Positions 27,248 through 33,503 of a stretch of 64,000 nucleotides of DNA are shown here, one piece after another. The notes beneath the pieces were generated by a model, which searched no databases, was not told where the DNA came from, and worked only from the letters and a program-made list of their open reading frames with translations. Origin of the DNA: Candidatus Edwardsbacteria bacterium RifOxyA12_full_54_48 (GTDB lineage: Bacteria > Edwardsbacteria > AC1 > EtOH8); NCBI GenBank assembly GCA_001777915.1, contig MFFN01000001.1:1-64000 (forward strand), read 5' to 3'. The stretch's first letter is position 1; each line of letters begins with the position of its first letter. Position numbers and translations under genes: made by a program.

Positions 27248-29014
27248 ATGGTCGATCTGACCATCAAAATAGCCGGGGCGGCCGGGCAGGGGATGCAGAC
27301 CATCTCCACCATCCTGGCCAGATCACTCACCCGGCAGGGCTATTACGTCTACTGCTACCAGGATCTGATGTCCCGGATCCGGGGCGGGCATAATTACGCC
27401 ACCATCCGCATCTCCGACCACCCGGTGGGCGGACTGTCCGAGGAGAGCAACATCCTGATAGCCCTGAATGCGGAATCCGTCAAACTTCACTCCGGGGAGA
27501 TGATCCCCAACGGGGTCATTGTATACGACGACAAATTGCAACCCTTCGACAAAGCTCAGGGCAAGAATGAAGATCTTGAAATTCAAAATGATGAATTGAA
27601 TCTATTTCCGGTGCCGATGGAAAAACTGGCGGTGGAGGCCGGACAGAACAAGATTCTGGTCAATTCGGTGGCCTGCGGGGTGTGCTTCAACCTGATGGAA
27701 TACGATTTCGATGTCCTGGCCGATACCTTGGGGGATATATTTGCCGCCAAGGGCGACGCCATGGTGGAGGCCAACATCCGGGCGGCCCGGGCGGGCTACG
27801 AATATGCCCGGAAAAATTTCCCGGAAGGAACCTGCCCCTATTGTCAGTTAAAACTTGAAAGGGAAAAGTCGAAAGCCCGGTTGCTGATGAACGGCAGCCA
27901 AGCCGCCGGACTGGGGGCCATCCTGTCCGGGCTTAAATTCATGTCGGCCTATCCCATGTCTCCATCCACCGGAATCATGGAATATATCGCTTCCCAGCAG
28001 GTGGAATTGGGGATCATCATGGAACAGGCCGAGGACGAAATCGCGGCCATCAATATGGCGCTGGGGGCCTCTTTCGCCGGGGTGCGCAGCATGACCGCCA
28101 CCTCGGGCGGCGGCTTCGCCCTGATGACCGAGGGGCTGTCGCTGGCCGGGATGACCGAGACCCCGCTGGTCATCTTCTTGGCCCAGCGGCCCGGCCCGGC
28201 CACCGGGCTTCCCACCCGCACCGAGCAGGGCGACCTGATGTTCGCCCTGTACGGCGGGCACGGCGAATTCCCCCGGGCCATCCTGGCTCCCGGCGATGCC
28301 GAGGAGACCGTACATTGCATGAACCGGGCCTTCAACCTGGCGGACCGCTACCAGATCCCGGTGATAATCCTGGGCGACCAGAACCTGAACGATTCTTTCT
28401 GGACGGTGGATGCTATCGATCCCGGGCGCTTCTCCATAGACCGTGGGAAGCTACTCGATAAATGGGATGAAACCCAGGAGGAATACAAGAGGTATCACCT
28501 GACACCCGACGGCATCTCGCCCCGGCTGATCCCCGGCAGCCCCGGAGCGGTGGGCTACTGGGACAGCGACGAACACACCGAGGAGGGGCACATCGCCGAG
28601 AGCGCCTCGGTCAGGCGGCAGATGACGGCCAAGAGGATGAAGAAAATCCAGTCCCTGCAGGCGGAAGCCCTGGCCCCCGTAATGTGCGGCACCGGCGACC
28701 AGGTGCTGCTGATCGGTTTCGGCACCACCAAGTGGCCGGTCATGAAGGCCGTGGAGGCTTTGGCCAGAAAGGGCGAAAAGATATCCGGCCTGCATATAAA
28801 ACAGCCGTACCCTCTGTCATCGGAGATCAGAACGATATCGGAAGGTTTTTCCAAGATAATCGTGGTGGAGCAGAACGCCACCGGGCAGCTGGAAAAACTG
28901 CTGTTGACAGAATCGGGCATCAAAGCCTCCGGGTCCATCAGAAAATTCGACGGCCGGCCGATCACGGCCAAATATATAGTTGATAGTTACGAAACCGTAA
29001 GACAAACTCTATAA
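27248..29014 (+). CDS. korA: 2-oxoacid:ferredoxin oxidoreductase, fused gamma-alpha subunit
   Basis: 588 residues. Residues 1-about 180 are the gamma domain (KIAGAAGQGMQTISTILARS and MSRIRGGHNYATIRIS). About 205-440 is the TPP-binding alpha N-domain (SAYPMSPSTGIMEY, EQAEDEIAAINMALGASFAG, TATSGGGFALM). The rest is the alpha C-domain, ending GRPITAKYIVDSYETVRQTL. This gamma-alpha fusion with a separate beta subunit is the layout of 2-oxoglutarate (KorAB) and related enzymes, which oxidise a 2-oxoacid with CoA and reduce ferredoxin. The beta subunit at 32.6 kb has no 4Fe-4S delta partner nearby. An AT-rich stretch about 100-125 (DKAQGKNEDLEIQNDELN) is an insertion. Confidence 0.93.
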   Translation: MVDLTIKIAGAAGQGMQTISTILARSLTRQGYYVYCYQDLMSRIRGGHNYATIRISDHPVGGLSEESNILIALNAESVKLHSGEMIPNGVIVYDDKLQPFDKAQGKNEDLEIQNDELNLFPVPMEKLAVEAGQNKILVNSVACGVCFNLMEYDFDVLADTLGDIFAAKGDAMVEANIRAARAGYEYARKNFPEGTCPYCQLKLEREKSKARLLMNGSQAAGLGAILSGLKFMSAYPMSPSTGIMEYIASQQVELGIIMEQAEDEIAAINMALGASFAGVRSMTATSGGGFALMTEGLSLAGMTETPLVIFLAQRPGPATGLPTRTEQGDLMFALYGGHGEFPRAILAPGDAEETVHCMNRAFNLADRYQIPVIILGDQNLNDSFWTVDAIDPGRFSIDRGKLLDKWDETQEEYKRYHLTPDGISPRLIPGSPGAVGYWDSDEHTEEGHIAESASVRRQMTAKRMKKIQSLQAEALAPVMCGTGDQVLLIGFGTTKWPVMKAVEALARKGEKISGLHIKQPYPLSSEIRTISEGFSKIIVVEQNATGQLEKLLLTESGIKASGSIRKFDGRPITAKYIVDSYETVRQTL

Positions 29015-29460
29015 GGAAGCCAGGAATGCAGGAAAATCGAATACATGGGGAAATTGGTTTTGGATGTGGAAAGGGACCAAGCAAAATAATTCCTGTCTTC
29101 ATGGTTTCATTATAAGGGATTCTATAAGGAAGCCAGGAATACAGGAGAATCGGATACGCGGTTTTAGGGAGTTGGAATGTGAAAAAAGTCTCGCTTATCC
29201 CTAATAATTCCTGCCTTCATGGTTTCATTATAAGGGATTCTATAAGGAAGCCAGGAATACAGGAAAATGGATGCACGGGTAAAGTGGTTTTCGCTTTGAA
29301 AAGGGTGATCTCAAAATAATTCCTGCCTTCATGGTTTCATTATAAGGGATTCTATAAGGAAGCCAGGAATACAGGAAAATGGATACACGGGTAAATTGGT
29401 TTTCGATTTGAAATGGGTGATATCAAAGTAATTCCTGCCTTCAGGGATTCCTAACAAAAG
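29008..29460 (+). repeat. Four-copy tandem array of a 112-118 bp inverted-repeat unit
   Basis: Units start at 29008, 29121, 29239 and 29351 with TCTATAAGGAAGCCAGGAAT and end with AATTCCTGCCTTCATGG followed by TTTCATTATAAGGGAT; the last is cut short at 29460. The left arm GAAGCCAGGAAT pairs with ATTCCTGCCTTC except for one mismatch, and the right arm of one unit can also pair with the left arm of the next. Units 3 and 4 are almost the same; unit 2 differs most in its middle. The first unit contains the korA stop codon. The array fills the gap from korA to the relic ORF and has no gene. Confidence 0.9.
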
Positions 29461-29466
29461 GGATAT

Positions 29467-29550
29467 ATGAGGGACGTTAATATATACAAAAGCGGAGACG
29501 GGCGGCCCATAACGGCAAAATATATTGCGGATAGTTATAAATCGTTATGA
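29467..29550 (+). pseudogene. 27-codon ORF related to the KorA C-terminus
   Basis: A short ORF with its own ATG (29467) behind AAAAGGG, encoding MRDVNIYKSGDGRPITAKYI then ADSYKSL. The block DGRPITAKYI plus DSY matches the end of KorA at 28950-29000 with one substitution in between. Codons differ mainly at third positions, so the two copies diverged as coding sequence. The stop overlaps the ATG of the next gene (ATGA). It is either the remnant of a lost korA paralogue or a coupled leader peptide. It is shown as a pseudogene; function unproven. Confidence 0.6.
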
Positions 29551-32500
29551 AAAAAATACTGGCCATATCGATATTCCTGCTGTCAGTCTTGCCGGGTGGG
29601 GAGTGTCTGGCCCAGGATTCCCTCAACCTGAGGACCGTGGGGGTCTGGCCCTACGGGCTTACCAATGCCGTAAATAAATACATCAGCGGCGGTCATGATT
29701 ACATCCTGATGGGCAGCGGCCGGCGCATCAGTTTGCTGAACGTGGACGACCCCGCCCATCCCTGCATCACCGGCGAGACCGGCGTTGCCGACGATATCAA
29801 CAAGATATGGGCCGATGGCAATTACGCCTATACGGCCCACGGCCACTCCGGGGTCAGCATCATTGACCTTACCGATCCCCACCACATCCGGGGATCCTAT
29901 AAAACAGAGGGGCCGGCCAAGGACATCGAGGTCAGATGGCCCTATGCCTACGTGGCGGTGGACAGCCAAGGCCTGACGGTGCTGAACATATCCGATCCGG
30001 CCGATCCCTTTCTGGTTTCGAGATTGAATTTTTCCGGGGAGACCATCGGCATCGGGCTGGGCGGGAATTACGCCTTTCTGGCCTCGGGCGGCAACGGGGT
30101 CAGGGTGCTGAATATCGGCAATCCGAATGTCCCAACGCTTATCGCCAGCTGCAACAGCCTGGGTTATGTTTACGATGTCTCCGTTTCCGGCAGCTATGCC
30201 TACGTGGCGGCCGGAGATTCCGGCCTGAGGGTCATGGATATCTCCAATATCTCCGCCCCGGTGCCGTCATCGAAGTTCAAATTCCAGAACAAGGCCAGAG
30301 CGGCGGTGAGGTCCGGGGACAATGTCTTTGTGGCCGGGGATTTTGCCGGGCTGAGGATCATCAATGCGGCCACTCCCGGTAAGATCGGGGAGGTGGGATA
30401 TTTTAAAACCGCCTATAATGTGGTGGACCTGTGTATGATAGGCGACCATGCCTTCCTGGCCGACAGAGCCGGCGGACTGCGGGTTATAGACGTCTCACAG
30501 ATAAAGAATCCGGTCCTGGCCGGCCAGTTCGACACCCCGGGATATGCCAAGAACCTGCTGATAAAAAACGGCTATGCCTACATCAGCGACGGAGATTCCG
30601 GCCTGTGCATCGCTGACATCAGCGATCCGGTGGCGCCGGTTGCCGTGGGGCGGTATCATTCGCCAGGCTTTGTCTCGGCGGCCGATATCCCCGGCAGACA
30701 TGCCTACCTGGCGGCCGGCGGTGCCGGGCTGAGAATTGTTGATATCCTGGACCCGGCCAATCCGGTGGAGACAGGTTTCTGGGACAGCCCCGGCCAGGCC
30801 AACGATGTGTTGCTCCAGACCATGGATGATGAAAGGAGGTATGCCCTCCTGGCCGACGGGGATTCCGGCATATCCCTGGTATATGTACATGATCCTTACA
30901 ATCCGGTGGATACCGCCAGGCTCGATTCGGTCGGCCATGCCTGCGGCTTGACAACCGTTAGTATCTTGGGTGGCAGCAGTATCCTTGGGGCGATGGGAAC
31001 CCATGATTTCACCGGTATAGATATCTGGCAGATCTATCCCGACAGCTTGGATTCAAGCAAGGTAACCTATGCCCTAAATGCCGGCAGCGGTCCGGCTGCC
31101 GATTACAACTACTCAGTCAGCTTCAATGATAACAAGCTCTGCATATCCAATGGCAATCAGGGGCTCAGTATTAGAAATCTCATCATTGAAAACCTCAATG
31201 GTGTGTGGATATACTGGTTTTCCCCCGGGGGAACTTATTATACCTCAACCAAGACCAAGGATGCGGCGATTTCCGGCAACTACGCCTATGTCACCGACAA
31301 ATATTCGGGTCTGCAGGTGGCCGACTTTACTGACCAGGGAAATCGGGGAGGGATCGGGTTTTATGCCGTGCCCGATTCCATGGAAACGGCGCTTCTCTAC
31401 GGCAATTATGCCTATCTGCTGTGCGGCCAGGCCGGCATCAGGATCGTGGACGTCACCCAAAAATCCATCATCACCGAAGCCGGGGCCTACGACATCCCCC
31501 TGGCTGTCTACGGTCTGCAGGCGAGGGACAGCCTGGCCTACGCGGCGGACGTGAATTCGGGGATAAGGGTGCTGGATATATCCGATGCGGCCCATCCCCG
31601 GGAGATAGGCTACTGCCGGACAGCGGGCACCCCTTTCGGGCTGGACATCGCGGACAGCATCATCGGGGTGGCCGACGGGGAGTTCGGGCTGGCATTGATA
31701 AACGCCAAAGACCCGGTCAGTCCGGTGGTGGTCGGCAGCTGGAACAGCCCCGGGTTTGCCTACAAGGTAAAGATGGACGGAAATTCCGCATACCTGGCCG
31801 ACGAGTCCGCCGGATTGCGGATAATAGATATCAGCGACAAAGCGATGCCGGTTGAAACAGGCTTCTATAACACTTTGGGCAATGCCTACGGGCTGGATAT
31901 CAAAGGCGGCCACGCTTACGTCGCAGACGGGTCCAATGGATTGCAGGTGATCGACATTACGAATAAAGCCGATCCTACGCTGACCGCCAGCTTGAGCCTG
32001 CCGGGGACGGCCTACGATGTGGCCATCTCGGGGAATTATGCCTACCTGGCTGCCGGATATTACGGCCTGAGGATCGTCAATATCGCCGATCCCAACCATC
32101 CCGCCGAGACCGGATATTGCAACACCGCCGGCTATGCCCGGGGACTGGCAGTCAACGGCAGCACGGCCTATGTGGCCGACGGCCACAACGGACTGGCATC
32201 GATTGACGTGTCTGATCCCACCGCCCCCCGGCAGACCGGGCGGTATTACAGCGGGAGCAGTGTCTGGGCGGCGGCCGTTTCCGGAGAGAACATACTTCTT
32301 TCGGACGGCAACTATATATTAAGGGTCTTGGAGACCTGGCAATCACCGCTGCCACCGGAAAAAAGATACGAATCTCTGGTATCCCAGAATTATCCCAATC
32401 CTTTTAAGGCCGGGACTCGTATCAATTATTCCGTTTCGATTTTCGGCCGGGTCTCAATTTCGATCTACAACGCATACGGACAGAAAGTGATCGAGCTGGT

Positions 32501-32645
32501 GAACCAGGAGAAAAACGGCGGGCAGTATTCGGCTTATTGGGATGGCCGGGACCAGCAGGGCCGTCCCGTCCCCTGCGGCGTTTATTTCTACCGGGTCAGC
32601 ACTCCCGATCTTACCCGGACCAAGAAGATGATGATAATCAGGTGA
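29547..32645 (+). CDS. Secreted LVIVD-repeat beta-propeller protein with T9SS-type C-terminal domain
   Basis: 1032 residues. A signal peptide (MKKILAISIFLLSVLPGGECLA) is followed by about twenty repeats of roughly 40 residues of the LVIVD type (for example GNYAYLAAGYYGLRIVNIAD, then PNHPAETG), forming one or more large propellers. The final about 85 residues from YESLVSQNYPNPFKAGTRIN are the FlgD-like/type IX sorting domain (YNAYGQKV, YWDGRDQQGRPV, GVYFYRV, KKMMIIR). It is probably exported to the cell surface. Its position between the alpha and beta subunit genes of a cytoplasmic oxidoreductase is odd. Start overlaps the relic ORF. Confidence 0.9.
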   Translation: MKKILAISIFLLSVLPGGECLAQDSLNLRTVGVWPYGLTNAVNKYISGGHDYILMGSGRRISLLNVDDPAHPCITGETGVADDINKIWADGNYAYTAHGHSGVSIIDLTDPHHIRGSYKTEGPAKDIEVRWPYAYVAVDSQGLTVLNISDPADPFLVSRLNFSGETIGIGLGGNYAFLASGGNGVRVLNIGNPNVPTLIASCNSLGYVYDVSVSGSYAYVAAGDSGLRVMDISNISAPVPSSKFKFQNKARAAVRSGDNVFVAGDFAGLRIINAATPGKIGEVGYFKTAYNVVDLCMIGDHAFLADRAGGLRVIDVSQIKNPVLAGQFDTPGYAKNLLIKNGYAYISDGDSGLCIADISDPVAPVAVGRYHSPGFVSAADIPGRHAYLAAGGAGLRIVDILDPANPVETGFWDSPGQANDVLLQTMDDERRYALLADGDSGISLVYVHDPYNPVDTARLDSVGHACGLTTVSILGGSSILGAMGTHDFTGIDIWQIYPDSLDSSKVTYALNAGSGPAADYNYSVSFNDNKLCISNGNQGLSIRNLIIENLNGVWIYWFSPGGTYYTSTKTKDAAISGNYAYVTDKYSGLQVADFTDQGNRGGIGFYAVPDSMETALLYGNYAYLLCGQAGIRIVDVTQKSIITEAGAYDIPLAVYGLQARDSLAYAADVNSGIRVLDISDAAHPREIGYCRTAGTPFGLDIADSIIGVADGEFGLALINAKDPVSPVVVGSWNSPGFAYKVKMDGNSAYLADESAGLRIIDISDKAMPVETGFYNTLGNAYGLDIKGGHAYVADGSNGLQVIDITNKADPTLTASLSLPGTAYDVAISGNYAYLAAGYYGLRIVNIADPNHPAETGYCNTAGYARGLAVNGSTAYVADGHNGLASIDVSDPTAPRQTGRYYSGSSVWAAAVSGENILLSDGNYILRVLETWQSPLPPEKRYESLVSQNYPNPFKAGTRINYSVSIFGRVSISIYNAYGQKVIELVNQEKNGGQYSAYWDGRDQQGRPVPCGVYFYRVSTPDLTRTKKMMIIR

Positions 32646-32648
32646 TAT

Positions 32649-33503
32649 ATGCTTGACCCCGAAATCTATAACAGCCAAGATGAGATAGCCTGGTGCCCCG
32701 GCTGTTTCAACCACTCCATCCTGAAGGCTCTCAAGCAGGCCCTATCCGACCTGGAAATACCGCCCCATCGGGCGGTCTTCAGCTCCGGGATCGGCCAGGC
32801 GGCCAAGCTGCCGCATTATATCAAATGCAACCTTTTCAACGGGCTGCACGGCCGGGCCCTGCCGGTGGCCACCGGGATCAAGCTGGCCAATCACCATCTC
32901 CAGGTCATTGCCGAGGGTGGCGACGGAGACGGCTATGCCGAGGGGGGCAATCATTTCATCCACGCCATGCGGCGGAACATCGGCCTTACCTATCTGGTGC
33001 ACAACAATCAGGTCTACGGGCTGACCAAGGGCCAGACCTCGCCCACTTCCGAGTCTGGCTTCATCAGCATCACCACCCCGCTGGGCAATTTCAGTTTCCC
33101 GGAACAGCCCCTGACCATGGCCATTGCCGCCGAATGCTCCTTGGTGGCCCGTGGTTTTGCCGGGGATTCCGATCATCTGGCCGGGCTGATAGTAGAGGGG
33201 CTCAGGAACCCGGGCTTTTCGTTCATCGACATCCTCCAGCCCTGCATCACCTTTAACAAGGTCAATACTTTCAAGTGGTACCAGGAAAGGGTTTATAAAC
33301 TGCCGCCGGAGTACGACCCCTACGACAAGACAGCGGCCTTTGCCATGGCCCAGGAGTGGGGGGACAAAATACCGACCGGCATCATCTACAGAAACAACCG
33401 GGTCCCCTTGGAAAAACAGCTGCCCCAGATTTCCCGGACATCCCTACTGAATCTGGAGATCGAGCAGGAAAAAAGAATTTCACTGATAAATGATTTTAAA
33501 TGA
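32649..33503 (+). CDS. korB: 2-oxoacid:ferredoxin oxidoreductase, beta subunit
   Basis: 284 residues. It has the CPGC of the 4Fe-4S/TPP beta subunit (DEIAWCPGCFNHSILKAL, about 12-29), GIGQAAKLPHYIKCN, HGRALPVATGIKLAN and the TPP motif GDGDGYAEGGNHFIHA. NNQVYGLTKGQTSPTS is the usual post-TPP block. It would pair with the fused gamma-alpha subunit at 27.2 kb, although a 3.6-kb interval separates them. Starts 3 bp after the LVIVD gene and overlaps the next ORF's first possible ATG. Confidence 0.95.
   Translation: MLDPEIYNSQDEIAWCPGCFNHSILKALKQALSDLEIPPHRAVFSSGIGQAAKLPHYIKCNLFNGLHGRALPVATGIKLANHHLQVIAEGGDGDGYAEGGNHFIHAMRRNIGLTYLVHNNQVYGLTKGQTSPTSESGFISITTPLGNFSFPEQPLTMAIAAECSLVARGFAGDSDHLAGLIVEGLRNPGFSFIDILQPCITFNKVNTFKWYQERVYKLPPEYDPYDKTAAFAMAQEWGDKIPTGIIYRNNRVPLEKQLPQISRTSLLNLEIEQEKRISLINDFK

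Follow-up and report, generated by a model that had tools for sequence, protein, structure and literature searches.

A 27-codon open reading frame (ORF) lies at 29467-29550 on the forward strand of a 64,000-nucleotide stretch of Candidatus Edwardsbacteria DNA (hereafter, the window), where it encodes MRDVNIYKSGDGRPITAKYIADSYKSL followed by a stop. Judging from comparison with relatives, it is an in-frame fusion of two genes of the surrounding operon, with the 5' end of korB (ribosome site, ATG and about 11 codons) joined to the 3' end of korA (about 16 codons and the stop). We interpret this fusion, with a probability of about 0.83, as a scar left by recombination between two layouts of the operon, in which the korB 5' end was fused to the korA 3' end at GACGG. 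This would explain an odd small ORF as a fossil, left when two layouts of a core metabolic operon recombined, and would show in readable form how overlaps of a stop with a start can outlast rearrangement. The scar is real but fairly ordinary.

We searched ten family genomes; the relatives found by name bear the name Candidatus Edwardsbacteria. G000 is the window genome, G001-G003 belong to the same genus (n = 4 genus genomes; G003 is Candidatus Edwardsbacteria DeMMO3_1), G006-G009 belong to other genera, and G010 is an outgroup. The features of the locus in the window are the following.

27248-29014, forward strand: korA, an intact 2-oxoacid:acceptor oxidoreductase gamma-alpha fusion of 588 aa (POR + POR_N; TIGR03710, 649.9 bits)
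28949-29014, forward strand: present korA 3' end (DGRPITAKYIVDSYETVRQTL, then the stop), of the type found beside the GxxExxY unit in relatives, from the comparison of tail identities
29008-29450, forward strand: a 112-bp unit repeated 3.9 times (TRF) between korA and the ORF, with ends matching the ends of the G001 and G003 GxxExxY units
29456-29499, forward strand: korB-derived part (AAAAGGG, ATG at 29467, MRDVNIYKSGD), aligned with the korB starts of G006, G008 and G009 and with the chimeras of G001 and G003
29467-29550, forward strand: chimeric ORF of 27 codons, a candidate leader coupled to the LVIVD gene (AAGG before its ATG; LVIVD ATG without a Shine-Dalgarno)
29497-29501, forward strand: junction GACGG, where korB (..AGC GRA GAC G..) meets korA (..TTC GAC GGC CG..)
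29497-29550, forward strand: korA-derived 3' end (DGRPITAKYIADSYKSL, then the stop that overlaps the next start), from the KorA-tail match
29547-32645, forward strand: LVIVD beta-propeller protein of 1032 aa with a C-terminal type IX secretion sorting domain (PF08309, 348 bits; TIGR04183)
32649-33503, forward strand: korB, 284 aa, intact, beginning MLDPEIYNSQDEIAWCPGCF (PF02775, PF12367; TIGR02177)

The LVIVD gene therefore stands between korA and korB in the window; its product carries a secretion sorting domain, yet the gene lies within a cytoplasmic oxidoreductase operon.

The KorA C-terminal tail of the window reads ASGSIRKFDGRPITAKYIVDSYETVRQTL, and the DGRP motif that starts at 28949 in korA starts again at 29497 in the ORF, a spacing of 548 bp. 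A reading of this DNA made from its letters alone (the sequence-only reading) had described the ORF as ending in a KorA-like tail, while allowing that an alignment might place the match within chance. We found that the KorA tail aligns to the 536-nt stretch after korA with a local BLOSUM62 score of 73, against a maximum of 42 in 1000 dinucleotide shuffles of the same stretch, so the tail match is far above chance; the 14 matched codons show six synonymous differences and one non-synonymous difference. Given the shuffle test, and the presence of the same fusion in a separate genome (G003), a chance match or an assembly artefact can practically be discounted. The match is confined to KorA residues 565-585, with the korA body missing. 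In the whole genome, the only full-length KorA match is korA itself, the ORF fragment being the last among the matches listed, and no second full korA was found elsewhere, the next matches being partial paralogues (at most 43%). The ORF also has the signals previously ascribed to it, namely its own ATG with an AAAAGGG ribosome site at 29456-29462, four bases 5' of the ATG at 29467, and a TGA stop that overlaps the LVIVD start as ATGA at 29547-29550. The third-position divergence of the two tails had been read as protein-level constraint on both copies. The differences are indeed mostly synonymous, but this divergence probably accumulated when each tail still closed a functional korA gene, and so it is no evidence of present selection on the 27 codons.

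The first 11 codons of the ORF, together with the untranslated bases 5' of them, align column by column with the korB starts of relatives, at a score reached by 0 of 1000 shuffles. Where relatives have the order korA-GxxExxY-korB, korB begins ML-D-(I/V)-NIYKSED. Both parents of the chimera are identifiable in relatives, the korB start in G006, G008 and G009 and the korA end in G002, G003 and others, and the join has 4-5 bases of microhomology, with GACG occurring both in korB (GAGGACGATG and GAAGACGAAA in G006 and G009) and in korA (TTCGACGGCC). It had been suggested earlier that a second korA-type gene once stood here and was lost except for its tail. The tail does stem from a second copy or allele of korA, the body of which has disappeared, but the start, the ribosome site and the first 11 codons are those of korB, and we rejected a plain korA pseudogene relic because the ribosome site and the first ~11 codons are korB-like. 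A korA origin of the tail is supported, and the korB origin of the head is new. The sequence-only reading had missed the korB-like first 11 codons, as well as korB 3' of the LVIVD gene and the array of 4 x 112 bp.

Two operon layouts occur in the family and outgroup, one with a GxxExxY gene between korA and korB and one in which korA directly overlaps the next gene. G006 and G007 have the order korA, GxxExxY gene (TIGR04256), korB, with korB beginning MLDINIYKSEDDVAWCPGC or MLDPEIYKSDDEVAWCPGC, and show no echo of the korA tail although the GxxExxY unit stands between korA and korB. In the outgroup G010, korA overlaps korB directly. G002 has the layout korA-ATGA-LVIVD-korB, with its only full korA directly 5' of LVIVD and with neither GxxExxY nor echo at the locus. 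An intact gamma-alpha gene before LVIVD, which the earlier reading had suggested looking for in relatives, is therefore present in G002, with the same ATGA overlap; G002 is also a case of the locus being kept in a relative that lacks the ORF, which was to count against that reading, but there the intact korA fills the coupling position. Firestonebacteria and other outgroups have korA then korB, with no GxxExxY or echo in the stretches read, and agree with a simple layout while adding no detail. G008 and G009 carry other inserted ORFs between korA and korB, and their korB starts read MLDVNIYK(S/I)ED. These inserted ORFs are unrelated (L062, L063), marking the korA/korB junction as an insertion hotspot; the G009 korA (L063) has two in-frame TAG codons.

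Within the genus, G003 shares the scar of the window; its fusion (MDVNIYKSGDGRPITAKYIIDSYGNL, then a stop) is the same, but the ATGA there opens korB. The fusion in G001 differs and contains more of korB (MLDINIYKSEDGVAWCPDCFNNSLRKSE joined to TAKYIRDGYKSL, then a stop); tblastn found KorB residues 1-27 in it, and it leads into LVIVD. G000 and G001 have in common the last codons (KSL and the stop) and the LVIVD gene. The fusion is 27 codons long in G000, 40 in G001 and 26 in G003, and is open, in frame and ends in ATGA in these three of the four genus genomes. Because the G000/G003 join differs from the G001 join, at least two events are needed. The G001 locus (L058, G001:C35) has further changes: korA is cut to its first ~10 and last ~66 codons and korB is without its middle, while the GxxExxY gene and LVIVD are open, a kor operon decaying while its passengers stay.

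Homology-facilitated illegitimate recombination (HFIR) is probably the mechanism of the scar. DNA carrying a korA tail, a GxxExxY unit and a korB start would have entered a locus of the layout korA-ATGA-LVIVD-korB, most likely through homologous pairing within korA at the left end and microhomology joining at GACGG at the right. The product would have been korA with a new tail, followed by the GxxExxY unit, eleven korB codons and the old korA tail, which was displaced downstream but kept its overlap with the start of LVIVD. In the lineage of the window, an internal deletion would afterwards have removed the GxxExxY gene, and what was left would have been amplified into the array of 4 x 112 bp. 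This order of events is a reconstruction that the four genus genomes do not fix.

Several comparisons point to recombination at the locus. The last 45 nt of the window korA share 91-93% identity with G001/G003 and 69% with G002, whereas the 132 nt before this tail are closer to G002 (87%) than to G001/G003 (77%), a switch in affinity supported by a Fisher p of 0.004. Over 275 informative sites, the window korA is a mosaic of G002-like and G003-like sequence, with 95 runs against 137 expected (shuffle minimum, 107); a single-breakpoint test gave p = 0.04 for the last 500 columns and 0.08 for the whole gene, which is marginal. At its start, the GxxExxY gene of G008 shares 89% identity with this genus but 68% with its congener G006; this difference of 0.21 compares with at most 0.05 by which korA windows of G008 favour this genus, and the flanking korA is 92% identical between G008 (L062, G008:C186) and G006 (L061, G006:C16). 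Cross-genus exchange of the G008 GxxExxY gene start is probable from these identities, and since its difference stands so far above the korA maximum, the segment from the korA tail to GxxExxY probably moved between lineages, here between genera. A further comparison counts against the recombination scar as we reconstruct it: over 45 nt, the echo tails of G000 and G003 are 71% and 78% identical to G002 and 80% and 76% identical to their own upstream korA, and so are not clearly closer to G002.

We lean slightly toward a horizontal donor rather than a tandem duplicate. The same scar could have arisen from a tandem duplication, korA-GxxExxY-korB-korA-LVIVD-korB, followed by one internal deletion that took out everything between codon ~11 of the upstream korB and the final codons of the downstream korA, again with GACGG microhomology. 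Internal deletions are common here (the G001 korA, the G001 korB and the window GxxExxY unit), which speaks for this route, but it requires a duplication plus a deletion, no tandem intermediate occurs in any of the 10 family genomes, and the switch of the present korA tail to the G001/G003/G008 type is left unexplained. It is the less likely of the two routes.

In the array between korA and the ORF, the 112-bp unit resembles the GxxExxY units of G001/G003 at both ends: its first ~45-70 bases match their 5' end and its last ~67 bases their 3' end, at 80-88%, with a deletion junction at ACATGG/GGAAATTGG. On these matches, the array goes back to a GxxExxY unit from which an internal deletion removed the gene; the remnant was then amplified in tandem. 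The unit ends, AAGGAAGCCAGGAAT and ATTCCTGCCTTCATGG, form an imperfect inverted repeat, and short sequences matching them are scattered across this genome and those of its relatives. GxxExxY genes are numerous (loci L068-L097 in G000 and the family genomes), with 11 matches in G000 and 13 in G003, and some copies in G006 and G008 appear flanked by a second kind of repeat. Mentions of GxxExxY in the papers searched were made in passing and were uninformative. The unit shows one gene, GxxExxY (TIGR04256), and no recombinase gene; it may be a mobile unit without a recognised recombinase.

Integrating elements can restore the 3' end of their target gene, as prophages do in icd, and insertion of the GxxExxY unit might likewise have made the tail copy. 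The copy lies just beyond the unit, and the unit is found at the korA 3' end in several genera. Among 28 surveyed GxxExxY loci that have a gene end upstream, however, a real echo occurs at one, the G003 korA locus; the only other hits in this survey (L072) were low-complexity matches from a spurious frame. With one real case in 28, GxxExxY insertion by itself does not account for the echo, and we rejected an icd/e14-type tail duplication by an integrating element. The units of G006 and G007 between korA and korB without an echo, the lack of a recombinase gene, and the korB sequence at the echo start, which this route does not predict, all stand against it, leaving insertion very improbable as the source of the tail copy.

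Any present-day role of the scar would be an addition to its origin and not an alternative. The 27 codons might be a selected, translationally coupled leader, with ribosomes starting at AAAAGGG/ATG, ending at ATGA and re-initiating on LVIVD, a role that is somewhat less likely than not. There is no match of at least 4 to the Shine-Dalgarno consensus 5' of the LVIVD ATG at 29547, whereas the ORF has a weak Shine-Dalgarno (AAGG) at a suitable distance 5' of its ATG. ATGA is kept before LVIVD in G000 and G001 and before korB in G003 despite the differing fusion lengths, and in G003, where the old ATG became ACG, codon 2 became ATG. Termination-reinitiation at ATGA is itself an established mechanism (PMC6728339). 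Against selection, the overlap is inherited from korA-LVIVD, as in G002, and its presence therefore needs no new selection; G000 and G003 show three synonymous and one non-synonymous codon differences over 14 codons, with three sequences being too few for dN/dS. In 28900-29700, we found no Rfam match and no unusual RNA fold (z = -1.26), so we rejected a structured or known RNA element there and see no sign of attenuation-type control. From its arrangement, the ATGA overlap may still couple LVIVD translation, and a coupled-leader role is plausible. That the chimera was kept as a replacement ribosome-delivery leader after recombination broke korA-LVIVD coupling, at least twice in the genus (the G000/G003 and G001 joins), is more doubtful again. 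If the leader role is true, the operon would have repaired its own translational coupling with scrap from its own genes.

The locus can be compared with three known systems. The first is homology-facilitated illegitimate recombination, a well-documented process (PMC3240628) that, according to one proposal, can leave the ends of genes displaced (PMC5361080). As in its products, the scar has one homologous side (korA) and one microhomology join (GACGG), with old sequence kept beside new; here, however, the process is deduced from species comparison. Displaced ends of effectors or toxins in T6SS and Rhs loci (PMC5361080 and works cited there) likewise have an old 3' end pushed downstream of its replacement. 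In contrast to those loci, the displaced end here belongs to a housekeeping metabolic operon, is a 16-codon piece fused in frame to the start of another gene, and involves no toxin or immunity gene. Gene pairs overlapping at ATGA can be coupled by termination-reinitiation (PMC6728339), and the ORF and LVIVD likewise have a four-base stop/start overlap and a downstream gene without a Shine-Dalgarno. The upstream partner in such pairs is a full gene, whereas here it is a 27-codon chimera whose coupling to LVIVD is putative.
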